From: a virus
DNA: 31,471 nucleotides
Virus record (IMG/VR): IMGVR_UViG_3300044530_000222
Location: 1 to 31,471 of that record
Reading direction: 5' to 3' (one strand)
The notes under the pieces were generated by a model. That model was not told where the DNA came from. It saw only the letters and a list, made by a program, of their open reading frames with translations, and made no database searches. The position numbers and the translations under genes are program-made. Shown here piece after piece: positions 9,403 through 29,153 of the stretch; the stretch's first letter is position 1, and each line of letters opens with the position of its first letter.

Positions 9403-12400
9403 GTGGCTTCGACTGACCAATACCCCGCCCTTGCTGACCTGATGGCTCGTGCCCCGTTGCGCCAACCCGCGACGAACAAGAGCGGTATCCTTGGCCCCGG
9501 TTTGAGCGCGGCTGTCGATCAGTTTCAGGCGAACACCGGTGTCGGTATTCGAGCTGTGGGCGACTTTATCGGCTCACAGACTGTTTCGGACATCGGTGCA
9601 GGTATTGCCGAACGTAATTTTGCGGAGATGGCGCGCGGTGGGCGCGCTGATCTGGAGTCATTTCCATCTGACGATCTGACTAAAGCCCCTGCATGGTTGG
9701 GCTATCAGCTTGCAAAGCAGGTACCCAATCTGGCGCTGACCGCGCTGGCTTACCGCTTTGGTGGCCCGCTTGCCGCGAGGTATATGCCTGCTGCTGCGGC
9801 TCAGGCAGGTGCTGCCGCCCCCCGCTGGATTGGTGGCGGTGGTCTGCGTGCCGGTATGACTGCAGCTGAGACTGCAGCTGCGAATGCGCGAGGCGCTGGC
9901 CTTGCAGCTGGTGTGCTGGCGCAGGCCCCGATCAACTACCCGCAAGCTGTAGGTAGTCTGTACAACGAGGCGATTGAGAGCGGCAACGCAGGCCCCGGTA
10001 AGGCGCTGTTGTCTCTTGCAGGCGGTGTCCCGTATTCGCTCGCTGAAGGCTTTGAGCCTGCTACTCTCGGTAAGGCGCTCGCGCGCACCGCAGAGAAGGG
10101 CTTCTTCAAGAGTGTGGCGGCAGGCGCGGTCACCAACGCGGCGCAGGAAACCCTTACGGAAGGCGCGCAGACGGCCATGGAGCAGGCATTCCGGCCTGAC
10201 CTGTCTGTTCGTGAGCGACTGGCCAACGTGGTCTCTGGTGCGGTTACAGGCGGTGTTCTCGGTGGTGTGTTCGGCGGTGTCTCGGGTGGCATCGGCGGCA
10301 TGCGCCAGCTCAAGACATCTGATCCGGCTACCATCGACAACCCGACAATTGCTGAAACGGTTGATCGCGTGCTCGCGCCTGTCAGCGGCGCGTCTCTCCC
10401 GCTGGAGGTTGACGAGCAGCAGGCCAACATGGGTGTGGGGCAGGAGGTTTTCGACGCCCGCACGCGTGAGCTGCGTCCGTTTGCAGGTCCCGAGACGGCA
10501 GAACTGGAGCAGCGCCTTGCAGAGGTAGAGCAGCGCGGGCTCCTGACGCGCGAAATGCAGACCGAGATTCCCGGTATGGCTCCGCCTGCCGCGAGTAGGC
10601 AGGACATGGTGCTTGCTCAGCTGCTCCGTCAAGAGCTGGGGCGTCGCGCTGCTGAGCAGCCGGTAGTTACACCGAATGCCGCCGCTGATCCCAGCACACA
10701 GCCAATGTTGAACGATTTGCAGCAGTCGCAGCAGGTCGAGATGTTCCCTGAGCAGCGCGGTACGCCTGCGCCCGAAGACATGGTAGTTGCCGCGCAGCGC
10801 CGCGCAGCGCAGGCCAAGGCCGCGCAGTACGGTCAGTCGCTGCTGGGCTCGTCCAAGGCACAAGGTGCGGCAGAGCTGCTGGCGCGTCCAGTGCGCGACG
10901 AACTCGACGTGGCCGCTAATATCGTTGAGGCCATCAATACGCGCGACGGCAGCGAGAACAGTACCGGCACACTCCCTATCTACCTCAAGAAAGCTGCGGT
11001 GCAGCTCGGGGTGATGGATACCGAGGGTCGGCTTCGCAGTGTCGAGAGCGTGCAGACAGAGCTTGCAGAAGCGCAAGCCGTCGCGGAAGACCGCTGGCAG
11101 CGCGCCAAGACCATGAACGTCGGTCAGGGTGAGGCGCAGGCCGCCCAGCGCAAAGTTGCCAAGCTGAAGGATACGCTTGCACAGGTGAGCGCCATTCAGA
11201 CCCGTCTTGCTGAGCGCGCCAGCCAGAACCCGCCTGTCGCCCCTCTGAGCGAGAGCCAGCGCCTTTCGACGCCGGAAGAAACCGTCGCCACGCTGGCGAC
11301 AGCCCCCGTGGTACCAATTCCGCCGACCATGCGGCAGATGTTCGATGTTCGCAGCTCTGGTGCACCGCTGCCGGTCGATGTGGTTGAGCCCCCCGCGCCT
11401 GTGCGAGATGCCTCTGGCATGCAGTACCAGTCGCTGGCAGAGCGGTTCCGCAGTCCTGTGGCACCTACACTGCAGCCCATATCGACTGCCCCTGTGGCTC
11501 CTTCCAGCCCCCTTGCGCAGGGTTCTCGCTTCTCGCCCGCAGGCGTTGCCACCAACCCCGAGCTGCCGACCAAGATCGTCACGGCAGAAAGCGTGGCCAA
11601 GGCTAGGGCCGAGGCTCGCGCTGCAGCCAAGGCTGCAGGCAAGGGCTCTCGTAAGCGGTCGCCCGCAGGCATCATCCTGCCGCCGACATACTCGCAGATG
11701 GCGGGCACCAGCTTTGCCTCGGCGGCTCCGGTGCCCCCGCGCCCCGCAACCGACATTCAGCCGGGCACCATGCGTGGTCAGGCGGTCAGTGATTTGGTCC
11801 GCGCCAAGTTGGAGCGGGTTGCCAACACCGACGAGGTGGGCCGCCCGATGCGGCAGGCCGCCTCTGAAGCTCTGGCCGCACTGGATGGCTTCCAGCCGGG
11901 AGCCGACACAACTGCTGCCCGCGTCTTGGCCGAGTATGCTGCGCTGACAGGTGACATTGTGTTCAGCCAGAAGAACGCTGGCCAGCGCACTCCGCCGATG
12001 ACAGACGAGGCGTTCGAGCAGGCGCTGAAGCGCGCGGCAGCCAGTCTGCCGCCCGTCGCCCGGTCGTCGATCTACGTGGTCAACAACGCAAGCGAGCTTC
12101 CTGATGTGGTGATTCAGGCGGCAGCCATGCAGGGTATGCATCCGACCGATATTCGCGGTGTTCTTTACGACGGCAGCGTCTATGTCGTGCAAGACCAGAT
12201 CGGCTCAGAGGCTGAGCTGCAGGAGGTCATCGACCACGAGGTGTTTGGTCACGGCGGTGCGCGAGCCCTGCTCGGTGACAAGCGTGGTCCGATCATGCAG
12301 ACCGTGTGGCGCATGATGGGCGGCATGCCCGGCCTGACAGCGATGGCGCGCAAGTTCGGTGTCGAGAAGGCGCTGGCCGAGTACATCCCCGGCGTCGACC

Positions 12401-15400
12401 CCAAGACCGGTGTGCCGACCCGCGACCTCACACCTGCTGAGCAGGTGCGCCTCGTAGATGAGCTGCTGGCGCAGGTGCAGGGCAGCAAGGGCAAGCTTGG
12501 ACTTATGCTCCGCGCATGGGTCAGCAGGTTCAAGTCGTTCCTGATCAACACGCTGCGCGACCTCAAGCTCGATACGCTGGCTGATCGCCTTGATACGTTT
12601 GATGCCAACGATCTGGCCGAGATGCTGACCCGTATGCGTCAGGCTGTCGAGTCCGGCGCGTCAATGAAGGGCGAGGGCGTGGAGTTCCTGCGGTTGACCC
12701 CGCAAGGCATGAACGAGAGCCTGCAGAACGCGTCCAAGACCGCCGACAACGTCTGGAACTGGGTGAGTAACGCCTCTCAGTCTGAGACGCGGCTCAAGCT
12801 CAACGAGTTCCATCTCTACACTAGCACGATCAGCCACATCGTCAGCTCATTCGGCAGAATGTTCGAGACGAAGGTTGGCAACCCGCTGCGCAAGTTCTGG
12901 GATGCGCACGTGATGCGTGGCGTGGCCGAGCAGCGCATGGCTCACGCGGTCGCCAAGAGCTACAACGATTTCGAGTCCTTGCTCAGCTCGAACCCCAAGG
13001 CTGCTGAGCAGATGAACAGCCTCATGCGCTACACATTTGACATGATCGACCCGCGCAAGCCGTGGTCTGACCATACATGGTTGCGCGACACCAAAAACCC
13101 GGCCAACGAGGCTCGCTCCAAGGCCAAGGTTGCAGAGGCAAACAAGCTTTACCGGGCGCTCAACGAGCGTAACAACCCGGAGGGTAATCGCGTTCTCACG
13201 TCTTACCAGAACTTCATCGACACTAACGAAGGCATGCACTTTGCGCAGCAGGCCATGTCACTGTTCAACCTGATGACCTCCGACAAGGAGATCGCGCAGG
13301 CGATGAAGGATGATCTGGAGGCAAATTACAAGAACCCGATGGACCGGTTCCTCCAGAAGACCGATACCTACGACAACACCAAAGCCACCCGTGATTTCTG
13401 GGAGACTGAGACGAAGGCGCTTGTCGAGAAGGCCGAGGCGTACCTAGCGTCGCAGAACGCTTTGGCGAACACGGTGGACAAGACCAGTGCAGCCAAGATC
13501 GAGAAGAACACATCGGCCCTCAAGGCCCGCCTGCGCACGATCAACTCCGAACAGCAGTCGATGAAGCAGGCTCCGTATTTCCACCTTGGCCGCTTCGGTG
13601 ACTGGGTGCTGGGCTTCCACATCCCGGTAAAGAATGGCGCGGCTGATCCTGCAGCGATGGAGGCTATTGCAGCAAGGTTCCAGAAGGCCGGGATTGAAGG
13701 GATCGAAATCCCGAAGGACGCTACCCGCGCAAATGCTTTCATTCGGTTCGAGAGCATGGCCGAGCGCGAGGCTGCGAAACAGGTTGCGCTGGAGCTGGCC
13801 AAGGATGGTTTTGTACTGAATACCGCTGACAAGCCGGTCACCGCGTTTAAGCGGTCCGATGATACAGCCATGCAGGCATTCGACATCAGCAAGATGCCCC
13901 AGTGGGCTCAGGGCCTGATGGACAAAATCCGCGCCAAGGAGTTCGGCAAGATCGAAGGGCTGAGCGAGGACGAGAAGCGATTGGTCAGCCGACTGAACAG
14001 CGAGTTTGAACGGCATGTCTCGCAGTACTTCTTGGACCTTCTGCCGGATACGTCAATCACCAAGGTGATGGTGCAGCGCAACAACGTGCCGGGCTTCTCC
14101 ACCGACATGATGCGATCTCAGTTGTTCCGGGCGCAGATTGCCGGGCGCGCGCTGGCAAACCTCTACGCTGCAGGCAAGATGGCTGAGGCTCGTGCAGGCA
14201 TGCTGGAGCAGGCCATGGACGCCCGTGGCGATCTTGACTCTGTGCGTGCGCAGATGAAGCAGAATGTGGTGTCGGAGCTGTTCCTGCGTGATGCGCAGCG
14301 CCCGCACATTGAGAAGAACACGTTCGTCGATGCGGCTCGCGCCATCAACCACGCATACTTCCTTGGAATGACGCCTGCCTACCCGGTCGTCAACCTGACG
14401 CAGATCGGTGTGCTGCTGTGGCCCGAGCTGTCGAAGCGGTTCGGCTTTGTCAACTCAGCCAAGGCTATTGGCAGGGTGACGCCCACGGCGCTCAAGGTGC
14501 TGGGTGCAGTATGGAGCGAAGCCCGCAAGAGCGGCTGGAAGAACCTGCCAGATGCGTCGATCAACACGCAGGTGCTCAAGGCTGCCGGGCTCAGCGGTTC
14601 GCAGGCCGATTTCATCATGCGTGTCGTCAACTCGGGCATTCTCGACATCGGTTCGCAGTCGCGTGAAATCGGGCGTGTTGTCGAGGGCCAGCAGTACTCC
14701 AAGCTGGACAACGCCCTGCGCTGGGCGTCCTCGTTCGGCTACTACTCGGAAATGCTGTCCCGCCTCGTCGCGGCGCTCTCGGCCCGTGAGCTGCATGGCG
14801 GCTACGACGAGAAGATGTACCAGTACGTTGACGACACGGTGCGCCAGTCCATGCTCTCCTACGAGACATGGAACCAAGCGCGTGCGACCGGCAAGCTGGG
14901 CCTACTCGGGCAGTACACGCCGATTATGACCAGCCTCATGCAGTACACCTTCCAGCTGACTGAGAAGCTGTATCGCGAGTTCCACACCGGCTTCATGGAC
15001 AGCACCATGAGCAAGGAGGAAAAGGCCGCTGCCCGTACCTTCCTCGGCACGCATCTCGCAGCCATTGTGGCGCTAACCGGCACGCTGGGCATGCCTATGG
15101 CCTCGGTGTTCGCCGGGGTGTTCGACGCACTGGCCAACACGCTCTGGAAAGATGATGACGATGAGCCGATGAACATCCGCGTGGCTTACCGCAATTGGCT
15201 GACAGATGTGTTCGGCGACACTGTGGGCGACATGCTGGCTCGCGGTGTTCCCCGCATCGCTGGCGTAGACATCTCGGCTCGCGCAGGCGAGCAGGACCTG
15301 CTGCCCTACGCGCACATCTTCAGCAAGCTGCTCACCGACAAGCGCGAGTGGAAGGACAAGGTTGCCGAGGACACGTTCCGGTCGCTGGGCGCACCGATCA

Positions 15401-15924
15401 GCATGGCCAACAGTATCATCTCGGGCGGCGACCAGTTCCTAAACGGCAACTACATGGATGGTCTCATTGAAATGATGCCCCCGGCCATCAAGGGACCGCT
15501 GAAGGCGGCCAAGCTCAGCGCGGATGGCTATACCGACCAGAAGGGCAACAAGATTCCGACGATGACGCCGGGCACCGTGGATGTGCTCTGGCAGGCGCTG
15601 GGCTTCAACCCGGCGAACAACGCCGAGTATCAGGAGTCCAAGAACGACCAGCGCATCCTGCGCGGTGCTATGATCAGCAAGGCGTCGCAGCTTCGTGAGA
15701 ACTTGGCTAAGGCCATCGAGAGCGGAGACATGGAAGCAGCCCGCGACTACATGCGTGAGGCAGAGGCGTTCGATGCCAAGAACCCGCAGTTCCAAGTGCT
15801 CAAGTCGATCAGGCAGGTGCTGCGCTCACGGGCGCGTGAGCGCGAAATATCTAGTCAATCCGGTGCTCCGCTGGGGGTCAAGCCTGAGTTGGCAGACCGC
15901 ACGCGCTACGGGATCGCCAATTGA
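9403..15924 (+). CDS. Giant polyvalent internal virion protein with zincin-like motif and PLxRFG-type module
   Basis: A 2173-residue protein beginning GTG 9403 behind AGGGAG. Visible layout: a hydrophobic Gly-rich region near 240-300 (NAAQETLTEGAQTAMEQAF, then a GGVLGGVFGG run); a coiled or disordered Gln/Glu/Ala/Pro linker about 350-860; a zincin-like metallopeptidase motif HEVFGHGG (H945, E946, H950) with a possible third ligand E1020; a helical region; a PLxRFG-family signature in variant form, PYFHLGRFGDW (1391-1401), and the family-like RNNVPGFSTDMMRS near 1560; and a C-terminal hydrophobic segment about 1878-1910 followed by KDDDDEP. Polyvalent proteins of this kind (Iyer, Aravind and colleagues) are thought to be packaged and injected. 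No RNA polymerase motif was found. It is the likely main ejection protein; the catalytic activity is unproven. Confidence 0.85.
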   Translation: MASTDQYPALADLMARAPLRQPATNKSGILGPGLSAAVDQFQANTGVGIRAVGDFIGSQTVSDIGAGIAERNFAEMARGGRADLESFPSDDLTKAPAWLGYQLAKQVPNLALTALAYRFGGPLAARYMPAAAAQAGAAAPRWIGGGGLRAGMTAAETAAANARGAGLAAGVLAQAPINYPQAVGSLYNEAIESGNAGPGKALLSLAGGVPYSLAEGFEPATLGKALARTAEKGFFKSVAAGAVTNAAQETLTEGAQTAMEQAFRPDLSVRERLANVVSGAVTGGVLGGVFGGVSGGIGGMRQLKTSDPATIDNPTIAETVDRVLAPVSGASLPLEVDEQQANMGVGQEVFDARTRELRPFAGPETAELEQRLAEVEQRGLLTREMQTEIPGMAPPAASRQDMVLAQLLRQELGRRAAEQPVVTPNAAADPSTQPMLNDLQQSQQVEMFPEQRGTPAPEDMVVAAQRRAAQAKAAQYGQSLLGSSKAQGAAELLARPVRDELDVAANIVEAINTRDGSENSTGTLPIYLKKAAVQLGVMDTEGRLRSVESVQTELAEAQAVAEDRWQRAKTMNVGQGEAQAAQRKVAKLKDTLAQVSAIQTRLAERASQNPPVAPLSESQRLSTPEETVATLATAPVVPIPPTMRQMFDVRSSGAPLPVDVVEPPAPVRDASGMQYQSLAERFRSPVAPTLQPISTAPVAPSSPLAQGSRFSPAGVATNPELPTKIVTAESVAKARAEARAAAKAAGKGSRKRSPAGIILPPTYSQMAGTSFASAAPVPPRPATDIQPGTMRGQAVSDLVRAKLERVANTDEVGRPMRQAASEALAALDGFQPGADTTAARVLAEYAALTGDIVFSQKNAGQRTPPMTDEAFEQALKRAAASLPPVARSSIYVVNNASELPDVVIQAAAMQGMHPTDIRGVLYDGSVYVVQDQIGSEAELQEVIDHEVFGHGGARALLGDKRGPIMQTVWRMMGGMPGLTAMARKFGVEKALAEYIPGVDPKTGVPTRDLTPAEQVRLVDELLAQVQGSKGKLGLMLRAWVSRFKSFLINTLRDLKLDTLADRLDTFDANDLAEMLTRMRQAVESGASMKGEGVEFLRLTPQGMNESLQNASKTADNVWNWVSNASQSETRLKLNEFHLYTSTISHIVSSFGRMFETKVGNPLRKFWDAHVMRGVAEQRMAHAVAKSYNDFESLLSSNPKAAEQMNSLMRYTFDMIDPRKPWSDHTWLRDTKNPANEARSKAKVAEANKLYRALNERNNPEGNRVLTSYQNFIDTNEGMHFAQQAMSLFNLMTSDKEIAQAMKDDLEANYKNPMDRFLQKTDTYDNTKATRDFWETETKALVEKAEAYLASQNALANTVDKTSAAKIEKNTSALKARLRTINSEQQSMKQAPYFHLGRFGDWVLGFHIPVKNGAADPAAMEAIAARFQKAGIEGIEIPKDATRANAFIRFESMAEREAAKQVALELAKDGFVLNTADKPVTAFKRSDDTAMQAFDISKMPQWAQGLMDKIRAKEFGKIEGLSEDEKRLVSRLNSEFERHVSQYFLDLLPDTSITKVMVQRNNVPGFSTDMMRSQLFRAQIAGRALANLYAAGKMAEARAGMLEQAMDARGDLDSVRAQMKQNVVSELFLRDAQRPHIEKNTFVDAARAINHAYFLGMTPAYPVVNLTQIGVLLWPELSKRFGFVNSAKAIGRVTPTALKVLGAVWSEARKSGWKNLPDASINTQVLKAAGLSGSQADFIMRVVNSGILDIGSQSREIGRVVEGQQYSKLDNALRWASSFGYYSEMLSRLVAALSARELHGGYDEKMYQYVDDTVRQSMLSYETWNQARATGKLGLLGQYTPIMTSLMQYTFQLTEKLYREFHTGFMDSTMSKEEKAAARTFLGTHLAAIVALTGTLGMPMASVFAGVFDALANTLWKDDDDEPMNIRVAYRNWLTDVFGDTVGDMLARGVPRIAGVDISARAGEQDLLPYAHIFSKLLTDKREWKDKVAEDTFRSLGAPISMANSIISGGDQFLNGNYMDGLIEMMPPAIKGPLKAAKLSADGYTDQKGNKIPTMTPGTVDVLWQALGFNPANNAEYQESKNDQRILRGAMISKASQLRENLAKAIESGDMEAARDYMREAEAFDAKNPQFQVLKSIRQVLRSRAREREISSQSGAPLGVKPELADRTRYGIAN

Positions 15925-15971: not shown

Positions 15972-16322
15972 ATGGCTGCATCCACATATGACATCCTCAT
16001 TGAGCAGGGCGCGACGTTCCAGCTGAACCTCGTGTGGAAGGATAGTCTTGGCGCACCTATTAATCTGACAGGTTATACTGCACGGATGCAAGTTCGGCAG
16101 AAGTACTCGGATACTACTCCGCTGCTAGATTTTACGACAGCAAACGGTGCGATCACGTTGGGCGGCACGCTGGGCACCATTCAGGTCATTGGCTTGGCGA
16201 CGCTTACGGACACGCTTACTGTCAAGTCCGGCGTCTATGACCTTGAGCTGGTGAGTGGCACTGGCACGGTAACGCGCCTCATTGAGGGGGCTGTCACGAT
16301 CACTCCACAGGTGACCCGATGA
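15972..16322 (+). CDS. Small beta-sandwich protein before the tail fibres
   Basis: A 116-residue protein with the pattern YDILIEQGATFQLNLVWKD, then GAPINLTGYTARMQVRQKYS and a C-terminal VYDLELVSGTGTVTRLIEGAV. This recurs in phages just upstream of tail-fibre genes and resembles the N-terminal domain of BppU-like upper baseplate proteins. It is likely an immunoglobulin-like or jelly-roll adaptor that joins fibres to the tail. The stop overlaps the next start (ATGA, 16319-16322), so both are made together. ATG 15972 has only a weak ACGGGA ribosome-binding site. The call rests on pattern memory and context; no enzymatic motif is present. Confidence 0.6.
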   Translation: MAASTYDILIEQGATFQLNLVWKDSLGAPINLTGYTARMQVRQKYSDTTPLLDFTTANGAITLGGTLGTIQVIGLATLTDTLTVKSGVYDLELVSGTGTVTRLIEGAVTITPQVTR

Positions 16323-16539: not shown

Positions 16540-18300
16540 ATGGCAAACGTACTTAGAATTAAGCGTCGCCTCGCAGGTGGTTCTGCTGGCGCGCCTGCGT
16601 CTCTTGCGACAGGTGAACTTGCGTGGAACCAGCAGGACAATATCCTGTACGGCGGTTTCGGCGATACCGGCAGCGGTGTCGCAACCTCCATCAAGATACT
16701 TGGTGGTGAGGGCGCGTTTGCGGTGCTCAACTCCCCGACGTTCACGGGTACGCCTGCAGGTCCGACTGCATCGGTAGGCACCAACACCACGCAATTCGCC
16801 ACCACGGCGTTTGTCCTCGCGCAGGGCAACGCGACTGCTGGCACCATTGCCATGAACGGCACGCAGGCCGCAGGCTCCTCAAACCTGTATGCCCGCGCTG
16901 ACCACGTTCACCCGACTGACACCTCGCGTGCACCGCTGGCATCCCCGACATTCACCGGCAAGGTCACCACAGCGGCCTCCGCAACGGGCGGCGCTGGTTT
17001 CAACGCTCCGCACGGCGCGGCTCCCACAAGCCCGGCGAACGGCGATCTCTGGACTACCACGGCTGGCCTGTTCGCCTACATCAACGGCACGACCATTCAG
17101 GCGGCTCCGCTGGCATCTCCGAGCTTCAGTGGTACGCCGTCCCTTCCTACTGGTACGACTGGCGTTACCCAAACTGCTGATACAAACAACACGACACTCG
17201 CCACGACCGCCTTCGTGCTGGCTCAGGCGTCTGGGACTACACCTGCCGCGCTCGGCACGGCTGCGGTGGGTACGGCCACCCGCTTTGCCCGCGCGGACCA
17301 CGTTCACGCAATGCCCACGCTCTCTCAGGTTGGTGCCCCGACCGCAGATGTTCCGTGGGGCAGCTTCAAGATCACAGGTCTTGCAGACCCGACGAACGCG
17401 CAGGACGCCGCTACCAAAAACTACGTAGACCTTGCCGCTCAGGGCCTCGACGCCAAGCAGTCGGTCAGGGCCGGTACCACAGCCAACATCACAACGCTTG
17501 CTGGCGGTGCGCCGAATACGGTTGATGGTGTGACGCTCTCGGCCAACGACCGCGTCCTCGTCAAGAACCAGACGACGACATCGCAGAACGGCATCTACAC
17601 CGTCACCACGCTGGGTACAGGCGCGAACGGCACGTGGGCTCGTGCCGCTGACATGAATGTTTGGTCCGAGGTGCCCAACGCCTTTGTGTTCGTCGAGGAA
17701 GGCACCACGCTGGCAGACACCAGCTGGGTTGTTTCTTCCAACGCTGGCGGCACGATTGATTCGAGCGCCATCGTGTGGTTCCAGTTTGGCTCGGCGGCGT
17801 CCTACACCGCTGGCAACGGCCTGCAGCTTTCTGGCAATAGCTTCTCGGTGCTGGCGGATGGCTCGACCATCACGGTGTCGGGTACTGGCATCAAGGTCAG
17901 CAACACCTACCCCGGTAACAGCAGCCTTGTCACGCTCGGCACGGTGACCACGGGTACTTGGAACGCCACAACTATCGCACCCACAAGGGGCGGTACGGGC
18001 CTCACGGCCTACACCACGGGCGACCTGCTGTACGCCTCGGGGACCAATACGCTGGCGGCGCTGGCAGGCGTGGCAACAGGCAACGTGTTGATCTCTGGTG
18101 GTGTAACGACAGCCCCGAGCTGGGGCAAGGTCGGCCTTACCACACACGTCAGCGGCACGCTCGCGGTGGGCAACGGCGGTACAGGCGTGACAACACTCAC
18201 TGGCCTCGTCAAGGGTAGCGGCACTTCAGCGTTCACGGCTGCTGTCGCCGGAACTGACTACCACGACACCAACTCCACTATTGACGGCGGTACGTTCTAA
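16540..18300 (+). CDS. Tail fibre protein 1 (586 residues, DGGTF end)
   Basis: Repetitive Thr/Ala/Gly-rich fibre. The N-terminus (MANVLRIKRRLAG then LATGELAWN) is of the type that attaches fibres to the tail. Repeats are SPTFTG, SPTFTG and SPSFSG at 65-70, 135-140 and 193-198; ATTAFVLAQ at 87-95 and 221-229; and ARADHVH at 118-124 and 250-256. A distinct domain at about 285-430 carries YVDLAAQGLDAKQSVRAGTT and DRVLVKNQTTTSQNGIYTV. Glycine-rich GNGGTG elements precede the end, STIDGGTF. The role is adsorption to the host surface. ATG 16540 has TAGGAG 8 bases upstream. A second fibre with a related N-terminus follows, so the two may share the same attachment site or stack. Confidence 0.85.
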   Translation: MANVLRIKRRLAGGSAGAPASLATGELAWNQQDNILYGGFGDTGSGVATSIKILGGEGAFAVLNSPTFTGTPAGPTASVGTNTTQFATTAFVLAQGNATAGTIAMNGTQAAGSSNLYARADHVHPTDTSRAPLASPTFTGKVTTAASATGGAGFNAPHGAAPTSPANGDLWTTTAGLFAYINGTTIQAAPLASPSFSGTPSLPTGTTGVTQTADTNNTTLATTAFVLAQASGTTPAALGTAAVGTATRFARADHVHAMPTLSQVGAPTADVPWGSFKITGLADPTNAQDAATKNYVDLAAQGLDAKQSVRAGTTANITTLAGGAPNTVDGVTLSANDRVLVKNQTTTSQNGIYTVTTLGTGANGTWARAADMNVWSEVPNAFVFVEEGTTLADTSWVVSSNAGGTIDSSAIVWFQFGSAASYTAGNGLQLSGNSFSVLADGSTITVSGTGIKVSNTYPGNSSLVTLGTVTTGTWNATTIAPTRGGTGLTAYTTGDLLYASGTNTLAALAGVATGNVLISGGVTTAPSWGKVGLTTHVSGTLAVGNGGTGVTTLTGLVKGSGTSAFTAAVAGTDYHDTNSTIDGGTF

Positions 18301-18313
18301 ACACATTGTTCCC

Positions 18314-18325
18314 GGCTATATAGCC
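18314..18325. repeat. Perfect 12-bp palindrome between the two fibre genes
   Basis: GGCTATATAGCC lies in the 41-base gap between the fibre genes. It could be a small hairpin or a protein-binding or recombination site; no partner copy was noticed elsewhere in the window. Confidence 0.5.
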
Positions 18326-18341
18326 AACAGAGGGATGCCAC

Positions 18342-20252
18342 ATGGCAAACACGTTGAGACTCAAGCGTAGCTCGGTGGCGTCGAAAGTTGCGGCGACCAC
18401 CGACCTACAACTTGGCGAGCTGGCCATCAACACGAACGATGGGCGGATGTTCACCAAGCGCAACGCTGGCTCGGATGAAATCGTTGAATTCCTCAACACC
18501 AACAGTGCGTTCAAGACGGACGTAGTTGCGGCCACCACGGCCAACATCGCCCTGACAGGTGCTCAGACTATTGATGGCGTATCGGTTGTTGCGCTTGATC
18601 GCGTGCTGGTGAAAGACCAGTCGGCACCAGCAGACAATGGCATCTACATAGCGGCAGCAAGCGCGTGGGCGCGTGCAACCGACTGCGACACTGCGAGCGA
18701 TGCCGCAGGCGCTATAGTGACTGTGACTAACGGCACGGTTAACGGCGGGTTAACCTTCGCTACATCATTCAAGGCGTCTAACACCCTTGGAACGACCGCG
18801 ATGGTGTGGAATCAGCTTGATTTTCGGGGCGATAGCTATCTCGGCATCGTCTCCGCCGCTGGCACAACAACTTTGACAGCCTCAAGCCAGCGCTACATCG
18901 TTGTTACTGGCACACAGACGCAGACAATTGTCCTTCCCGCCGTCAGCACACTTCCGCTTGGCACAACATATCTCATCCACAACCTATCCACAGGTCAGCT
19001 GACCGTTCAGTCATCTGGTGCCAACACAATTACTTCTCCTGTGCAAAATCATGTGTACGAGTTTAGGTCGATTGCGACGACCGGAACTGGTGCCGCTGTA
19101 TGGAACTATCACGCTGCAGGTACGACTACAGTCACCGGCACCGGAAACATGATTGGTGGCTTTAGGCCAACGATTAGCCAGCTGCAGGTGACATCAAGCA
19201 CAACATTCACCGCTGGAACTAACGCGCAAGGACAGGGTGTTCTGTCTGAGAATTTCAATGTCATCACGACTGCTGCAGCAAACCCTTCTGGCGTGACACT
19301 CCCCAGTGCTGGTTTCGGCACTTCTGCTTCCCGCCTTATAACCATCGTCAACAAAGGCGCTAATCCGGTAAACATCTATCCGGTAAGTGGCGGTCAGATA
19401 GATGCGCTCGGCACCAACACGCCGATGTCTCTCGCTGTAAACGCAGCAGTGTCTTTGCACAGTGCATCAACGACGCAATGGTACTCATCCGTAACGGCAA
19501 GCTCCGGTGGTGCAGGCGTTAACTCAATCACATTTGGCACTACCGGTCTTACACCGAGCACAGCAACAACTGGGGCGGTTACAGTTGCTGGCACGCTCAA
19601 TGTCGCAAATGGTGGTACGGGAGCGACTGACGCAGCAACAGCTCGCACCAATCTCGGCGCGGCTCCTATTGCTTCCCCAGTCTTCACGACGAGCGCAACT
19701 GTTGGGGCTGGCACAGGTGCTCCAGAACTGATCGTCAACGGAGGTGCTGGCTCGCAGAGACTCCTGACGTTCGAGACGAACGGATCAAATCGTTTTGCTG
19801 TCGGATTGGATCAAGCAGCCGAGTCTGGCTCGAATGCTGGCTCAGGCTTCTTCATCGCTCGCTACTCTGATGCTGGCGGCTACATAGATGCGGTCATGGG
19901 GATCACGAGATCGACCGGCGTAGCATCTTTCAAGGAACTGGCACTCAACACAGACCTTGCAATCTTGCACGGCGGCACTGGCGCTTCTGATGCTGCCGGT
20001 GCACGAACCAATCTTGGTATTGTCATCGGCACCGACATCCAAGCGTACAGCGCACGACTTGCTGAAATCGCTGCGCTGTCTCCGACAGCTGACAATTTTA
20101 TTGTCGGCAACGGCACAAGTTGGACACTGGAAACTCCAGCGGCTGCTCGAACGTCGCTTGGCTTGAAGACCGGAGCTCAAGTTGCAATTAGCGTTGGAAC
20201 AACTGCTCCCGGTTCTCCTGCCACTGGTGATCTCTGGGTGGATACAAACTAA
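18342..20252 (+). CDS. Tail fibre protein 2 (636 residues)
   Basis: Fibre-like protein. Its start MANTLRLKRSSVASK then LQLGELAINTNDG parallels fibre 1 (MANVLRIKRR, LATGELAWN). It also carries the DGVSVVALDRVLVKDQSAPADNGIY domain (about 77-101), cognate to DGVTLSANDRVLVKNQ in fibre 1. Further on it has a beta-rich shaft and two copies of the widespread fibre motif GGTGA.DAA.ARTNLG (near 455 and 545), followed by AYSARLAEIAALSPTADNFI and a C-terminus ending TGDLWVDTN. Codon choice is visibly more AT-rich than in the head genes. ATG 18342 has GAGGGA. Its TAA overlaps the next ATG by one base. Likely receptor-binding; the exact receptor cannot be read from sequence. Confidence 0.85.
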   Translation: MANTLRLKRSSVASKVAATTDLQLGELAINTNDGRMFTKRNAGSDEIVEFLNTNSAFKTDVVAATTANIALTGAQTIDGVSVVALDRVLVKDQSAPADNGIYIAAASAWARATDCDTASDAAGAIVTVTNGTVNGGLTFATSFKASNTLGTTAMVWNQLDFRGDSYLGIVSAAGTTTLTASSQRYIVVTGTQTQTIVLPAVSTLPLGTTYLIHNLSTGQLTVQSSGANTITSPVQNHVYEFRSIATTGTGAAVWNYHAAGTTTVTGTGNMIGGFRPTISQLQVTSSTTFTAGTNAQGQGVLSENFNVITTAAANPSGVTLPSAGFGTSASRLITIVNKGANPVNIYPVSGGQIDALGTNTPMSLAVNAAVSLHSASTTQWYSSVTASSGGAGVNSITFGTTGLTPSTATTGAVTVAGTLNVANGGTGATDAATARTNLGAAPIASPVFTTSATVGAGTGAPELIVNGGAGSQRLLTFETNGSNRFAVGLDQAAESGSNAGSGFFIARYSDAGGYIDAVMGITRSTGVASFKELALNTDLAILHGGTGASDAAGARTNLGIVIGTDIQAYSARLAEIAALSPTADNFIVGNGTSWTLETPAAARTSLGLKTGAQVAISVGTTAPGSPATGDLWVDTN

Positions 20253-22753: not shown

Positions 22754-23794
22754 ATGGCCGACCAGCCCGCACCCTCCGACAACATCAGCTTCGGCCAGTT
22801 CACCGGGCTCAAGAACACCGTTGCGCGTGAGCGCCTGACCCCCACTGAGCTGGAGGTCGCCAAGAACGTGGACATCGACGACGTGGGCCAGTTGCGCCGC
22901 CGCAGGGGCTACGCGCTGGTTTCCGCCGCCAACTATCACAGCCTGTTTACCGCTGACGATGGCACTGTGTACGGGGTCAGGAACGGCAACCTCGGGGTGA
23001 TTCGCGAGAATTACACATTCCAGCAGGTCGTAGCAGGTGTCGGCGGAGGGCGTATTGCCTACGTACAGGTCGGCCCGACCGTGTACTTTTCCTCGTCTGA
23101 CACGAACGGCAAGATCGACCATGCGACCAAAGTCGCATCTCCGTGGGGCGCGGCAGACAGCCAGAACACATGGCTCTCCCCGGTCATCAACCCGGTGCCC
23201 GGCCTCCCCCCGGTCAAAGGTAAGCTCTTGGGCAAGCCGCCGCTGGCGACCTCGTTGGCCTATTACAACGGACGCATCTACATGGCGCAGGGGCGGGCAG
23301 TCTGGGCGACAGAGCTTTACCTGTACGATTTTGTTGATAAAACAAAGACTTACACGCTCTATGAGTCGGATGTGCAGGTCCTTGCCGCCATGACGGACGG
23401 CCTGTACGTGGGCACCGAAGACGCCATCTGGTTCCAGAGTGGTCCGTTCAACGAGATGCGCCGTGTCGCGTCAGTCAATTCTGGGGCCTTGCCGGGGTCT
23501 GTGGCCAGCATCCCCCCGCACCTGATCCCCGACCAGTTCATGGGGAATACCCGTAGCGCCATTATGGTGATGACTCACGGGGGGTTGTGTCTGGGTCTGG
23601 ACGGCGGGAACATGATGAACCTGACCCAAACCAAGGTCATCTTCCCAGAAGCTATAAGAGTAAATAGCTTGTTCCGTGAGCAGGATGGTGTTAATCAGTA
23701 CATCGGTGTTGCGGATTCCGGGGGCAGCCCGGCATCCAACGCAAGAATTGGCGATTATGTGGATGCCGAGATACGGCGCTTCCAAGGAGCATGA
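22754..23794 (+). CDS. Tail structural protein, probable beta-propeller (nozzle-like)
   Basis: A 346-residue protein. Start chosen at ATG 22754, two bases after the upstream stop; the frame is open from 22571, but that part overlaps the previous gene. The N-terminus FGQFTGLKNTVARERLTPTE then KNVDIDDVGQLRRRRGY is a pattern I recognise in short-tailed phages. After it come repeated beta strands: LFTADDGTVYGV, RIAYVQVGPTVYFSS, AYYNGRIYMAQG, AAMTDGLYVGTEDAIWF and VMTHGGLCLGLDGG. Their spacing suggests a beta-propeller, as in nozzle proteins that close the short tail (T7 gp12-like). The next start overlaps its stop as ATGA. The family name is not verified. Confidence 0.7.
   Translation: MADQPAPSDNISFGQFTGLKNTVARERLTPTELEVAKNVDIDDVGQLRRRRGYALVSAANYHSLFTADDGTVYGVRNGNLGVIRENYTFQQVVAGVGGGRIAYVQVGPTVYFSSSDTNGKIDHATKVASPWGAADSQNTWLSPVINPVPGLPPVKGKLLGKPPLATSLAYYNGRIYMAQGRAVWATELYLYDFVDKTKTYTLYESDVQVLAAMTDGLYVGTEDAIWFQSGPFNEMRRVASVNSGALPGSVASIPPHLIPDQFMGNTRSAIMVMTHGGLCLGLDGGNMMNLTQTKVIFPEAIRVNSLFREQDGVNQYIGVADSGGSPASNARIGDYVDAEIRRFQGA
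23783..23788 (+). promoter_or_regulatory. Ribosome-binding site that decides the 178-residue start
   Basis: AAGGAG lies 2 bases before ATG 23791 but 8 bases before the in-frame ATG 23797. The second spacing is the workable one, so translation probably begins at 23797 even though 23791 forms an ATGA overlap. Confidence 0.5.
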
Positions 23795-23796
23795 GC

Positions 23797-24333
23797 ATGG
23801 AACCCAACTTTGAACTCTCCAAGGGCGGCGTGCTGATGCCGCAGCCCATCGTTGTGGCTGGCAAGTATTCCGGCCAGATCATCCGCGCAGGCGAGGTGAT
23901 CGACCAGTTTGAAGACCACAATCTCGTGGTCAACGAAGGTCTGAACGCGCTGCTGAACATCATGTTCAACGGAAGCACACAGGTCACCACGTGGTACCTT
24001 GGTATTTTTGAGGGCAACTACACACCGGTCGCTGGCCTCACCGCCGCCACCGTGACATCGGCCTCGACCGAGACCACTGCCTATACGTCAGCTACGCGCC
24101 CCGAGTATGTCGAGGCTGCAGCCTCGTCGCAGTCGATCACCAACTCGGCCAACCGCGCCTCCTTCGTGTTCAACGCCACGAAGACCATCTACGGCGCGTT
24201 CCTCGTCTCCAACCCGGCCAAGTCGGCGACGACCGGCACGCTGTTCTCGGCGGCACGCTTCGCCACCTCCAAGGCCGTGGAATCGGGCGACGAGCTGCTG
24301 CTGACCTACACCTTCACTGCGTCCTCCGTTTAA
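23797..24333 (+). CDS. Conserved tail protein (178 residues)
   Basis: The start is probably ATG 23797 (178 residues, AAGGAG at 8 bases); ATG 23791 would add two residues. The sequence contains EDHNLVVNEGLNALLNIMFNG, then TTWYLGIFEGNYTPVAGLTAAT, ATRPEYVEAAASSQSITNSANRASF and the C-terminal IYGAFLVSN then GDELLLTYTFTA. I recognise this as a recurrent phage protein, generally annotated as hypothetical and found among tail genes. It looks entirely beta-structured, without membrane span or catalytic motif, and is likely a virion component. A strong hairpin terminator follows the stop by 11 bases, closing this transcription unit. Confidence 0.75.
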   Translation: MEPNFELSKGGVLMPQPIVVAGKYSGQIIRAGEVIDQFEDHNLVVNEGLNALLNIMFNGSTQVTTWYLGIFEGNYTPVAGLTAATVTSASTETTAYTSATRPEYVEAAASSQSITNSANRASFVFNATKTIYGAFLVSNPAKSATTGTLFSAARFATSKAVESGDELLLTYTFTASSV

Positions 24334-24344
24334 GGCGACACCCT

Positions 24345-24369
24345 GACCACCCCGGTTGCCGGGGTGGTC
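24345..24369 (+). terminator. Hairpin terminator after the 178-residue tail protein
   Basis: An 11-bp perfect stem GACCACCCCGG / CCGGGGTGGTC with loop TTG, followed by CCTTCATTTG. The tail resembles that of the hairpin at 30338. Confidence 0.85.
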
Positions 24370-24390: not shown

Positions 24391-26376
24391 GTGGCCTACC
24401 CATCACTAGCTTATCGTGGTACGGCGGTATCGGCCACCGACACATCGACGTATACGTTTTCATCATTTGGTATCGGTAACGAGAGCCCGCTTCGCGCTGT
24501 AGTCGTCTTCGCGCAGTTCTCGACGCTGAGTGGCGCATCCCCCGTTACAGCGAATAACACAAGCTTGACCGTCAACGGTGTGTCCGCGACTTACCTGACA
24601 GGCTGTCAGGGCGCGTACAATATGTGCCAGACTGCTTGGGTGGCAGTCGTTCCGACAGGCACTTCTGTCGATATAGTTGCATCGTTCAACATCGTGATGA
24701 CTCGGTGCAGCATCGGTGTTTACACACTGAGGCCGTCGTCTCTCACACTGCTGGACACACTGGCCGTAGCGTCCGGCACTGCGACCGACGTTTCGCTCAC
24801 CGACATAAACATGACGACCAACGGCTGCGTGATTGTTGCGATGCTGCAGCAGGCCAGCTCCACCAACACGCTGAGCTACACAGGCACAGACTCTGTTGTG
24901 ACTGACTTGGCGCTTACCGTGCAGGATGCGTTTTACTGGGTCTCGTACGCGCGCATCGAGACAATGCAGACATTAGGCACCAACGACCTGATCTGGGCAT
25001 CAGCAACTGGCACGCGCCGATATTACATCGCACTATCGTTCAATGTGCAGGGGGCTTACACGGACATCATTGACGAGACGTTGGAACTTGAGGCGGTCGA
25101 GGAGTACAACACTATCAACCTTGGCGACCTCAACGACACGACGTTCTTTGCAACGACCGCGAGATACACACCTGAGATTACTATTAGCGAGACATTGGCC
25201 GAAATCCTCGGTGTCAGCGAGAGCCTGACAAGCCAGTGGCCGGTTGACATCGAAGATTGGATTGACTTTTTTGAGGACTTAACAGCGGGCGGCATTCTTA
25301 GTCTGACAGACAGCGTGGACTTCTTGGAAACGTTTAGCTACGGTGCCGGGGCAACCGCGACAGACGCCATCGGTGCCGGTGACGCAGCATCATATTACTA
25401 CATCCGTTGTCCGGTTCTGACCGATGGTGTCCGCGTAGGCGATGCGACCGCGCCGGGCATGGATTACATCGCGATAGTGACCGAGCGTATCGGTACTCGC
25501 AGCGTGGTCTTGGTTGGCGTGCCCGCTAATCTGTCCGAGACGGTGGCCATCAGCGAAGCCATGAGCACTGTGCGTGCTATGACAATCATTGACCAGCTTG
25601 GGCTGGCTGATGTGCTCGGTGTCAAGGCCACGTTTGGCAAGACAATAGCAGACAGCGTGCACGTCGCTGATGCTCTGCGTAAATTCTTTTCGGGCGATGT
25701 GGTCGATGGTGTTGCGTTCACAGACTTGCTTGAGCGGCAGCGTCAACTCAACCCGACTTTGACCGACACTGCAGGAATTGGTGAAACGCTTACTCGGCAA
25801 TTTATCCTGCGCGTGACCGCCGCCGAGACTCTGAGCCTGACGCACACTCAGGCGCTGAAGATGCTGTTCGACCCGGCGCTCGCGGACGCGGTGCAGCTGT
25901 CTGCGGCTTACGTGTCGCCCGGCAGCAGCGTGACAACGTGGGCGATCAACACCAAGAACATGGCCACCACCGAGTACACCAATTACGAGTTCAACAGCTT
26001 TGCCCGCATGGGTAACCACTACCTTGGTGCTACAAGTGCTGGACTCTACGAGCTGGACGGCGACACAGACGCAGGCACAGACATCATCGCCGACATCAAG
26101 TCCGGCCTCATGCAGCTGGGCGGCTCGCGGTTTACGTCGTTCAAGACCGCCTACATCGGTATGCGTGGCGAAGGTGACTTCGTCCTGAAAGTCGAGACAG
26201 GCGATGGCAAGACCTACAACTACGCGGTCGTCGGCAAGGACATGCAGACCTCGCGCGTGCATTTTGGCAAGGGTCTGCGCGCCCGGTACTTCTCGTTTGA
26301 GCTGATCAGCACCGGGCAGGATTTTGACCTCGACAGCATCGAGTTCATCCCGCTTGTGGTGCAACGCCGTGTCTAA
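24391..26376 (+). CDS. Tail protein with a tandem 18-20-residue repeat array
   Basis: A 661-residue protein with GTG 24391 behind GAGGTG. Three parts are visible. Residues 1-220 are beta-rich (TSTYTFSSFGIGNESPLRAV; VDIVASFNIVMTRCSIGVY), resembling a sandwich domain. Residues about 268-507 (bases 25192-25911) form at least 12 head-to-tail units of 18 or 20 residues with consensus x-[LIV]-x-[DE]-x-[VIL]-x-[VIL]-x-[DE]-x-[LMA]; copies at 380, 398, 418, 436 and 456 are clearest. Residues about 515-661 form a conserved tail module (NYEFNSFARMGNHYLGATS; GDFVLKVETGDGKTYNYAV; LRARYFSFELIS). The repeat is probably a stiff extended spacer between two domains. It is likely a virion tail protein; the family is not known to me. 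Confidence 0.75.
   Translation: MAYPSLAYRGTAVSATDTSTYTFSSFGIGNESPLRAVVVFAQFSTLSGASPVTANNTSLTVNGVSATYLTGCQGAYNMCQTAWVAVVPTGTSVDIVASFNIVMTRCSIGVYTLRPSSLTLLDTLAVASGTATDVSLTDINMTTNGCVIVAMLQQASSTNTLSYTGTDSVVTDLALTVQDAFYWVSYARIETMQTLGTNDLIWASATGTRRYYIALSFNVQGAYTDIIDETLELEAVEEYNTINLGDLNDTTFFATTARYTPEITISETLAEILGVSESLTSQWPVDIEDWIDFFEDLTAGGILSLTDSVDFLETFSYGAGATATDAIGAGDAASYYYIRCPVLTDGVRVGDATAPGMDYIAIVTERIGTRSVVLVGVPANLSETVAISEAMSTVRAMTIIDQLGLADVLGVKATFGKTIADSVHVADALRKFFSGDVVDGVAFTDLLERQRQLNPTLTDTAGIGETLTRQFILRVTAAETLSLTHTQALKMLFDPALADAVQLSAAYVSPGSSVTTWAINTKNMATTEYTNYEFNSFARMGNHYLGATSAGLYELDGDTDAGTDIIADIKSGLMQLGGSRFTSFKTAYIGMRGEGDFVLKVETGDGKTYNYAVVGKDMQTSRVHFGKGLRARYFSFELISTGQDFDLDSIEFIPLVVQRRV
25192..25911 (+). 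repeat. Protein-level tandem repeat array (18-20-residue units)
   Basis: Units begin at residues 268, 286, 304, 322, 342, 362, 380, 398, 418, 436, 456, 476 and 496 of the 661-residue protein. Hydrophobic residues fall at unit positions 2, 6, 8 and 12 and acidic ones at 4 and 10. The units have diverged at DNA level. Confidence 0.65.
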
Positions 26377-27305: not shown

Positions 27306-29153
27306 ATGGCGAAGCAGAAGTTCGACGGTCAGCCAAATTACTGGTACCAGATCGCCCTGCAAGAGGTCGCGGCGACGAACAGCTACCTTGTGGCTCTGGC
27401 GAACGCTACGGTGGGACTCAACCCTCCCGTGATTAACCCGGTGTTTCCGACTACCCCGACTGCCCCGCCCCTGATGACGGCCAACCCCCCGGTCTTGCAG
27501 GACGTGATCTGGGAGCTGCCCGCCATTCCGGGGCCGTTCACCGGCACGCTGGCCCTTGGTGACTATCTGCCTGCCCCGTTTGACCAGACCCCTCCGGTCC
27601 TGTCCTACGGCACGCCTCCTGCGGACTTTGCTGAGGCCCTTCCTGACGCGCCGGGCATCAACCTCGCCTTCGACACACCGACCCTGTCAGTGACGCTCCC
27701 TGCGCCGCCCAGCCTGCTCTCGCTGAACACCTACCAGTTCGGCGGCATCAACATGCCGACCATCGACACCAACCTGCCCACACTGAACGTGGCGGCTCCC
27801 TCGGTGGTCCAGTACGTGCCGGGCAGCATGTACACCTCGGCCCTGCTGGGCAGCGCCCAGAGCGTGCTGCAAGACTACATCGTCAATGGCGGCACTGGCC
27901 TGCCCCCGGACGTGGAAGAAGCCCTGTGGAACCGTGCACGTGACCGTGAGTACCGGGCGCAGGCTGACGCCATCGGTGATCTGGAGCGAATGGAGGCCCT
28001 TGGCTATGCCTTCCCTCCCGGCGTCTATGTGAACGCTCGCCTCAAGATCACCACCGAGATGGGCTACGTGGCCTCGACCCTGTCGCGCGAGATCGCCATT
28101 GAGCAGGCAAAGCTGGAACAGTCCAATATCCAGTGGGCCATGCAGAGCGCGGTGCAGCTGGAAGGCCAGCTCATCAACTACAACAACGCGGTCGAGCAGC
28201 GCCTGTTCGACGCCGTCAAGTATGCCACCGAAGCAGGCATCCAGATTTATAACGCGCAGGTGCAAGCCTATGCCGCGTACCTCGACGCGTACAAGACCAA
28301 GGTCGCGATCTACGACGCCATGATCAAGGGCGAGCTGGCCAAGGTCGAGGCGTACAAGGCCGAGATGGACGCTGAGAGCACCAAGGCCCAGATCAACAAC
28401 GCACTGGTGTCTCAGTACAAGACGCAGGTCGATGCGGCGCTGGCCAACGTGGAAATCTTCAAGGCCGAGATCGGCGCGATCCAGCTCAAGGCCGAGATCG
28501 AAAAGATGAAGATCGAAATCTTTGGCGAGCAGGTGAAAGCCTACGGGTCGAAGGTCAGCGCCTATACTGCAGGTGTTGAAGGTTTCCGCGCTAAGGTAGG
28601 CGCTGAAGCGTCCAAGCAGGAAGCATTCAAGTCGCAGGTGCAGGCGTACTCGGCTCAGGTCGAGGCCGGGACCAAGACGATCACCGCCAAGATCGACGAG
28701 TTCAAGGCGCGCATCGACGCCAAGAACTCCGAGTGGGAAGGCTACAAGGCGGCAGCGGCGGCGCAGTCGTCCAAGGCGCAGGCCATCTCGTCGATCAACA
28801 CATCCCTGTCTGACAGCTACCGGGCGCAGACATCGGCCATCACGTCTTACAACGAGGTGCTGACCAAGCAGTGGCAGGTGTCCATCGACCAAGCACAGCG
28901 CGTGGTGGAGATCGGCATCTCGGCAGCCAAGGCCAACGCTGAGCTTTACACAACCACTCGCTCTCTGGCATTGGAAGCAGCCAAGGTCGGTGCACAGGTG
29001 TCGGCGCAGATCGGTGCTGCGGCGCTCAACTCGGCCAACTGGAGCTGGAGCGAGAGCGAGTCCATCAGCGACAGCACAAGCACCAGCACAAGCAGCAGCA
29101 CGAGCCGCAGCACCAGCTCGTCGAACAACGTAAACTACAATTACAACGTATAA
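27306..29153 (+). CDS. Long helical virion/tail protein with Ser-rich end
   Basis: A 615-residue protein with ATG 27306 after CTAGGAGTACCCT. Residues about 40-185 are Pro-rich (NPPVINPVFPTTPTAPPLMT). From about 200 to 560 it is almost entirely helical, with repeated aromatic-centred units such as YNAQVQAYAAYLDAYKTKV, KVEAYKAEMDAES, VEIFKAEIGAI and VKAYGSKVSAYT, a pattern giving a long coiled coil or helical bundle. The tail is Ser/Thr-rich (SESESISDSTSTSTSSSTSR) and ends NNVNYNYNV. Such proteins may act as tail rods or as needle-like or ejected components; that is inference. It is co-transcribed with the next gene (11-base gap, AAGGAG). I recall similar hypothetical proteins in related phages but no named family. 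Confidence 0.75.
   Translation: MAKQKFDGQPNYWYQIALQEVAATNSYLVALANATVGLNPPVINPVFPTTPTAPPLMTANPPVLQDVIWELPAIPGPFTGTLALGDYLPAPFDQTPPVLSYGTPPADFAEALPDAPGINLAFDTPTLSVTLPAPPSLLSLNTYQFGGINMPTIDTNLPTLNVAAPSVVQYVPGSMYTSALLGSAQSVLQDYIVNGGTGLPPDVEEALWNRARDREYRAQADAIGDLERMEALGYAFPPGVYVNARLKITTEMGYVASTLSREIAIEQAKLEQSNIQWAMQSAVQLEGQLINYNNAVEQRLFDAVKYATEAGIQIYNAQVQAYAAYLDAYKTKVAIYDAMIKGELAKVEAYKAEMDAESTKAQINNALVSQYKTQVDAALANVEIFKAEIGAIQLKAEIEKMKIEIFGEQVKAYGSKVSAYTAGVEGFRAKVGAEASKQEAFKSQVQAYSAQVEAGTKTITAKIDEFKARIDAKNSEWEGYKAAAAAQSSKAQAISSINTSLSDSYRAQTSAITSYNEVLTKQWQVSIDQAQRVVEIGISAAKANAELYTTTRSLALEAAKVGAQVSAQIGAAALNSANWSWSESESISDSTSTSTSSSTSRSTSSSNNVNYNYNV

Follow-up and report, generated by a model that had tools for sequence, protein, structure and literature searches.

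An array of 18- and 20-residue repeats in a probable tail protein of an uncultivated virus

What is the array of short, regularly spaced units that occupies the middle of a structural protein of an uncultivated virus, and what could it do in the virion? The window analyzed here, i.e., the whole stretch of DNA under study, is one 31,471-base record, IMGVR_UViG_3300044530_000222, in which genes for a terminase, a portal-type protein, a major head protein, an SU10-type adaptor, and tail proteins follow one another. The ORF in question (positions 24391–26376, plus strand) has a GTG start with an AGGTG ribosome-binding site just upstream and encodes a protein of 661 residues. How short-tailed phages reach cells and open them is determined by their tail fibers and nozzles.

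The gene, its neighbors, and a solved homolog

The C-terminal part of the 661-residue protein matched the profiles PHROG 26502 ("virion structural protein", E 2.7e-30) and PHROG 12240 (E 2.3e-23), and comparison of the protein with the KPP25-type virion chain 26gp_Q gave E 3.8e-14. No Pfam match was obtained at E 1, and a search of viral contigs with the single protein returned zero relatives. The relatives used below were gathered via the conserved C-terminal domain with narrow alignments, a broad first alignment being too diverse.

Upstream, on the same strand, lie the genes of an Hc3-type nozzle propeller protein (22754–23794, 346 residues from ATG; PHROG 8040, "head closure Hc3", E 2e-23) and of a 180-residue tail protein homologous to KPP25-type gp80 (23791–24333; 26la_U/44nx, E 8e-25). 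The latter protein matched the Pfam family Gp80 (phage GP4 fiber I, PF23140) with E 8e-5 and 23.4 bits, which is below the cut-off of 27. The gap preceding the repeat gene contains, at 24345–24369, a strong hairpin, GACCACCCCGG-TTG-CCGGGGTGGTC (fold z −2.9), which is probably a terminator.

The conserved C-terminal domain comprises about 148 residues (514–661; 25930–26373, plus strand) and was delimited by the family alignment, the match to 26gp_Q, and structure matches. According to the analysis in hmmsearch, its family profile has one match among solved chains, namely 26gp_Q (E 2e-53). This chain, also found in 26la and 44nx, has 620 residues and is identical to gp82 of phage R18 (KPP25-type Pseudomonas phage). 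The proteins gp80 and gp81 were deposited together with gp82 (PDB 26gp/26la/44nx), while 26fb holds the Hc3 protein and a further protein of 219 residues. Since a homolog is present in virion entries, and genes of the gp80 and Hc3 types lie upstream, it is very probable that the 661-residue protein is a part of the tail. No paper for 26gp was found in the literature.

Downstream, a conserved neighbor of the repeat gene (27306–29153) encodes an apparently coiled-coil protein of 615 residues with a Ser-rich tail (PHROG 10969, E 3e-102); no solved structure was found for its KPP25-type counterpart. Two mosaic proteins encoded at 16540–20252 match many unrelated head-decoration and tail-fiber PHROGs, and the adjoining gene at 15972–16322 encodes a 116-residue protein similar to an L-shaped tail fiber assembly factor. 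An ORF of 2173 residues amid the structural genes (9403–15924), which has no Pfam match, possibly encodes an ejection protein.

The repeat, its two lengths, and their order

An earlier note, made from the letters of the window, had proposed at least 12 tandem copies of a unit of exactly 18 or 20 residues between residues 268 and 507. The array was analyzed by autocorrelation, chain scoring, and a segmental motif model, the last trained on about 130 relatives, with the window left out and a flat prior on lengths of 14–28. The proposal was confirmed: the model places 13 units at residues 271–516 (25201–25938, plus strand). Their acidic anchors are residues 271, 289, 307, 325, 345, 365, 383, 401, 421, 439, 459, 479, and 499 (nucleotides 25201, 25255, 25309, 25363, 25423, 25483, 25537, 25591, 25651, 25705, 25765, 25825, and 25885). 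All 12 spacings, in the order 18, 18, 18, 20, 20, 18, 18, 20, 18, 20, 20, 20, have one of the two lengths under the flat prior, six spacings each. The proposed limits agree with the model as well, the first anchor minus three residues being 268 and the last plus eight being 507.

The window parse scored 83.0, compared with 18.5 ± 6.3 in 200 shuffled sequences (maximum, 36). BLOSUM autocorrelation of residues 268–507 revealed significant periodicity at lags 18 (z 5.3) and 20 (z 4.6), with z 3.9 at each of lags 24 and 38, the maximum z being below 3.3 in 95% of shuffles. The motif by which the units had been recognized, x-[LIV]-x-[DE]-x-[VIL]-x-[VIL]-x-[DE]-x-[LMA], was closely recovered: 62 of 78 positions agreed with it in the highest-scoring chain of 13 units spaced by 18 or 20 (30.0 ± 1.7 in 500 shuffles; maximum, 37), but it is degenerate, with a mean of 4.8 of 6 positions per unit, only four complete units among the 13, and three positions in each of the weakest units, 365 and 479. 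Two or three weaker units had been suspected ahead of the array, and the model places two, at residues 229 (20 long) and 249 (22 long), corresponding to 25075–25200 on the plus strand.

Pairwise identity among the window units is only about 16%, as might be expected if the pattern had arisen by chance in an acidic, hydrophobic stretch. Nevertheless, none of the 200 and 500 shuffles approached the observed scores, and the order of lengths is conserved across lineages; a chance origin was therefore rejected, and its probability is considered negligible. The low identity of the units, along with the lack of any DNA-level tandem repeat within the array, indicates that the array is old and was not recently expanded.

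Two lengths also prevail in the family as a whole. Under the flat prior, 301 units of 18 and 457 units of 20 residues were counted, the numbers for 17, 19, and 21 residues being 65, 76, and 94; the same model training on shuffled sequences gave no length peaks. In position profiles built from 172 18-residue and 261 20-residue units and numbered from the first acid (0), hydrophobic residues occupy positions −2, 2, 4, 8, 12, 14, and 16, a break lies at approximately 9–11, and acidic residues occur at 0 and often also at 6. Compared with the 18-residue form, the 20-residue form is longer by a pair of residues inserted between positions 12 and −2, ahead of [LIV]-x-[DE], in line with the earlier supposition that the lengths reflect a two-residue insertion. 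In the family alignment, some orthologous positions differ by exactly two residues gained or lost.

Pfam matches to the repeats of the relatives were insignificant, the repeats of the closest relatives had none, and a literature search found no description of an 18/20-residue repeat. The suggestion that the repeat is not a described family is thus upheld: the repeat is genuine and ancient and lacks a description in Pfam, and the tail protein that bears it is of a known general kind.

The order of the lengths was analyzed in 27 clusters less than 60% identical, with units numbered backwards from the C-terminal domain. In these parses, the prior favored lengths of 18 and 20 but no particular order, and the clusters, although widely divergent, are related to each other and do not represent independent trials. 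Units −1 to −3 contain 20 residues in 79 of 81 cases, unit −4 contains 18 residues in 25 of 27 clusters, and unit −5 contains 20 in 24 of 27; farther out, lengths of 18 at unit −7 (18/20 clusters) and 20 at unit −8 (16/17) prevail. The order 20-20-20-18-20, read backwards from the C-terminal domain, is common to most of the 27 divergent lineages, which include the archaeal Methanosarcina virus MetMV, the Shewanella phage Y11, and MW202615. This conserved order is a clear, testable constraint on the fold of the repeat. A super-period of three units was considered and dropped, as the order falls out of phase with it in MetMV, Y11, and the group of the window.

Units at the same position show an identity of 0.25–0.30 between near relatives versus 0.16 among units within the window, which argues that the array is inherited whole and is not being re-expanded. 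The search for homologs with differing copy number, which the earlier note had proposed, was carried out; unit number does vary among relatives, the per-member counts of the model being upper estimates because they include weak units.

In about 20 other family members (L105, L116, L130, L141, and others), the best lag before the C-terminal domain is 21, and the repeats of approximately 21 residues are of the type GxVxLTLPxLxLxAxGYTG. The presence of this second type on the same C-terminal domain suggests that different repeat shafts have been exchanged on one anchor.

Fold of the units and of the C-terminal domain

Since all hydrophobic positions and all unit lengths are even, a single inside/outside register is possible through the array, and at the level of sequence this pattern fits extended strands. 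The regular beta ladder envisaged in the earlier note was not borne out by modeling. The AlphaFold2 model of residues 216–661 had a mean pLDDT of 48; that of residues 365–529 (the last seven units, with a better alignment of 51 sequences) had a pLDDT of 67 and a pTM of 0.36 and contained a mixture of strands (470–477 and 501–508) and a helix (485–493), the latter in the last full unit. A fold search with the repeat model found nothing (best Z 4.3), and a BFVD search with it returned a single sequence homolog only.

A cation-binding rod had been named as the other option. A calcium-binding acidic rod, RTX-like in principle, would accord with the window, where 10 of 13 units (77%) have acids at both 0 and 6, and with the proteins of MetMV, Y11, and the F116 type, in which both acids are present in about 90% of units. 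However, group C relatives keep the same 18/20 lengths with both acids in just 6% of 105 units, and the second acid is rare in KPP25 and MW202615. The acids therefore do not set the unit, an obligatory cation-binding form is not supported, and obligatory calcium binding by the shaft is unlikely to judge by these sequences; the calcium rod as a whole seems very improbable. An RTX beta-roll was also rejected: the translated sequence contains no GGxGxDxUx nonapeptides and has no Pfam match, and the acids are not conserved.

Short repeats with alternating hydrophobic positions are typical of triple beta-spiral and triple beta-helix shafts, and AlphaFold monomer models, which failed here, often fail for intertwined trimers. 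A homotrimeric fiber shaft of this type would have its anchor at the N-terminus and the C-terminal domain at its tip, but the C-terminus is the conserved part of the protein and resembles a tail-body domain. Each entry contains a single copy of the homologous chain gp82 rather than three, although the number of deposited chains is in itself no measure of the copy number. The triple beta-spiral was rejected, as the autocorrelation peaks at 18 and 20 and shows no period of 15 residues. A homotrimeric shaft is consequently thought improbable.

The C-terminal domain was modeled with pLDDT mostly of 70–87 in the first AlphaFold model. Its best structural matches were with the tail proteins of Pa223 (Z 9.5), SU10 (8.6), and VP1 (8.2), a T7-type nozzle (7.3), and P22 gp10 (7.2), scores that exceed those of unrelated matches by only 1–2 units. 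The domain aligns over the N- and C-terminal ends of the nozzle chains, i.e., over the platform beta-sandwich (the naming of the platform domain follows PMC9509320). The modeled C-terminal domain thus resembles the platform beta-sandwich of short-tail nozzle proteins (Z 7.2–9.5). The solved homolog of the 26gp type was not among the matches of the fold search, the library of which extends up to April 2026.

The beta-propeller that such nozzles carry in the same chain is encoded in the window by the separate Hc3 ORF (22754–23794), and no C-terminal domain of the above type was found in the Hc3 protein. The Hc3 gene lies upstream of the gene for the C-terminal domain, as a separate ORF, in 78 loci; both parts occur in one polypeptide only in L132 (2981–4672), L091 (3783–5438), and L153 (3915–5477), with no repeats between the propeller and the C-terminal domain. 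The locus L142 has two separate C-domain ORFs adjoining an Hc3 ORF. Given the nozzle-like domain, the natural fusions, and the separate ORFs in 78 loci, the nozzle appears to be split in two, its C-terminal half bearing the repeats.

Proposed architecture and comparison with known systems

The N-terminal domain (residues 1–228; 24391–25074, plus strand) is variable across the family and is proposed to be a distal head. In the window, these 228 residues have no Pfam match and no tblastn match in phages or plasmids; tblastn with the repeats alone likewise found nothing in phages or plasmids. The N-terminal parts of relatives contain Laminin_G_3 domains (up to six), BNR, or DUF5122 propellers, or are unmatched. 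To judge by the conserved C-terminus and the interchangeable, lectin-like modules at the opposite end, the N-terminus may face the host.

Within a short phage tail, the 661-residue protein may accordingly be pictured as a structural element, namely a C-terminally anchored shaft displaying an N-terminal head, to which about an even chance is assigned. The C-terminal domain would be a nozzle-platform-like anchor, presumably docking near the upstream-encoded Hc3 propeller; the 18/20 units would form an elongated, strand-rich spacer shaft; and the outward head, facing the host or its glycans, would be the variable N-terminal domain. Elongation and receptor binding are suggested here by the repeats and by the LamG modules of relatives. 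With a C-terminal anchor and an outward N-terminal head, the polarity would be reversed in comparison with a usual tail fiber. The unit would be mainly extended chain, and since such a chain must preserve inside/outside alternation, strand steps would change by two residues at a time and unit lengths would stay even. Several points speak against the shaft with a distal head: a confident rod is absent from both AlphaFold models, a helix is predicted in the last full unit, the N-terminal domain of the window matches no family, the nozzle-like scores stand close to those of unrelated folds, and the repeats could belong to the nozzle itself.

The last point leads to the main rival, according to which the Hc3 protein and the 661-residue protein are the halves of one nozzle, and the repeats, inserted into this nozzle, line the DNA channel or make it longer and do not form a receptor-seeking fiber. 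The platform-like C-terminal domain, its apparent lack in the Hc3 protein of the window, and its union with Hc3 in L132, L091, and L153 agree with such an extension. There is also a precedent in the nozzle of SU10, whose domains straighten and prolong the tail (PMC9509320); by analogy with these Ig-like domains, the arm would perhaps straighten on infection. However, the N-terminal modules vary greatly and in many cases resemble lectins, which fits a host-facing head better than a channel wall, and unit number varies among relatives; a channel-prolonging insertion is considered possible but less likely than the shaft with a head. 

Returning to the shaft displaying a head, its broadest form is put forward tentatively: an even-length repeat, with an order fixed from the anchor outward, would build a previously undescribed reversed-polarity fiber of bacterial and archaeal viruses, having a C-terminal nozzle-platform anchor and an interchangeable N-terminal lectin or propeller head. 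If true, a split nozzle with a modular arm would show how receptor-binding heads could be exchanged N-terminally in evolution.

Among known systems, the triple beta-spiral shafts of the adenovirus fiber and reovirus sigma1 offer an analogy, as they also consist of short degenerate repeats with alternating hydrophobic residues. These spirals have a 15-residue unit and are homotrimers, whereas neither feature was seen for the window repeats. The nozzle proteins T7 gp12, P22 gp10, and SU10 gp17 and the tail proteins of Pa223 and VP1 share a platform beta-sandwich similar to the C-terminal domain; the window protein differs in that the propeller is encoded by a separate gene, and its chain carries the repeats and an extra N-terminal domain.

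The KPP25/R18-type gp82 (Kochitakasuvirus "structural protein", PHROG 26502) has a homologous C-terminal domain, the same gene neighborhood, and three units of the 18/20 type (20, 20, and the last one) just before the C-terminal domain, but its array is much shorter, its middle part is mostly of another type, and its N-terminal domain is unrelated. A homolog with three such units therefore already has solved coordinates, the repeats lying at gp82 residues 412–470 and the C-terminal domain at about 468–616. The hypothetical proteins of the F116-type phages (Hollowayvirus), Shewanella phage Y11, and Methanosarcina virus MetMV differ from the window protein in having little or no N-terminal head and a low unit identity, but they contain a purer form of the repeat with the lengths of 18 and 20, and those of Y11 and MetMV share with the window protein the C-terminal order 18-20-20-20.
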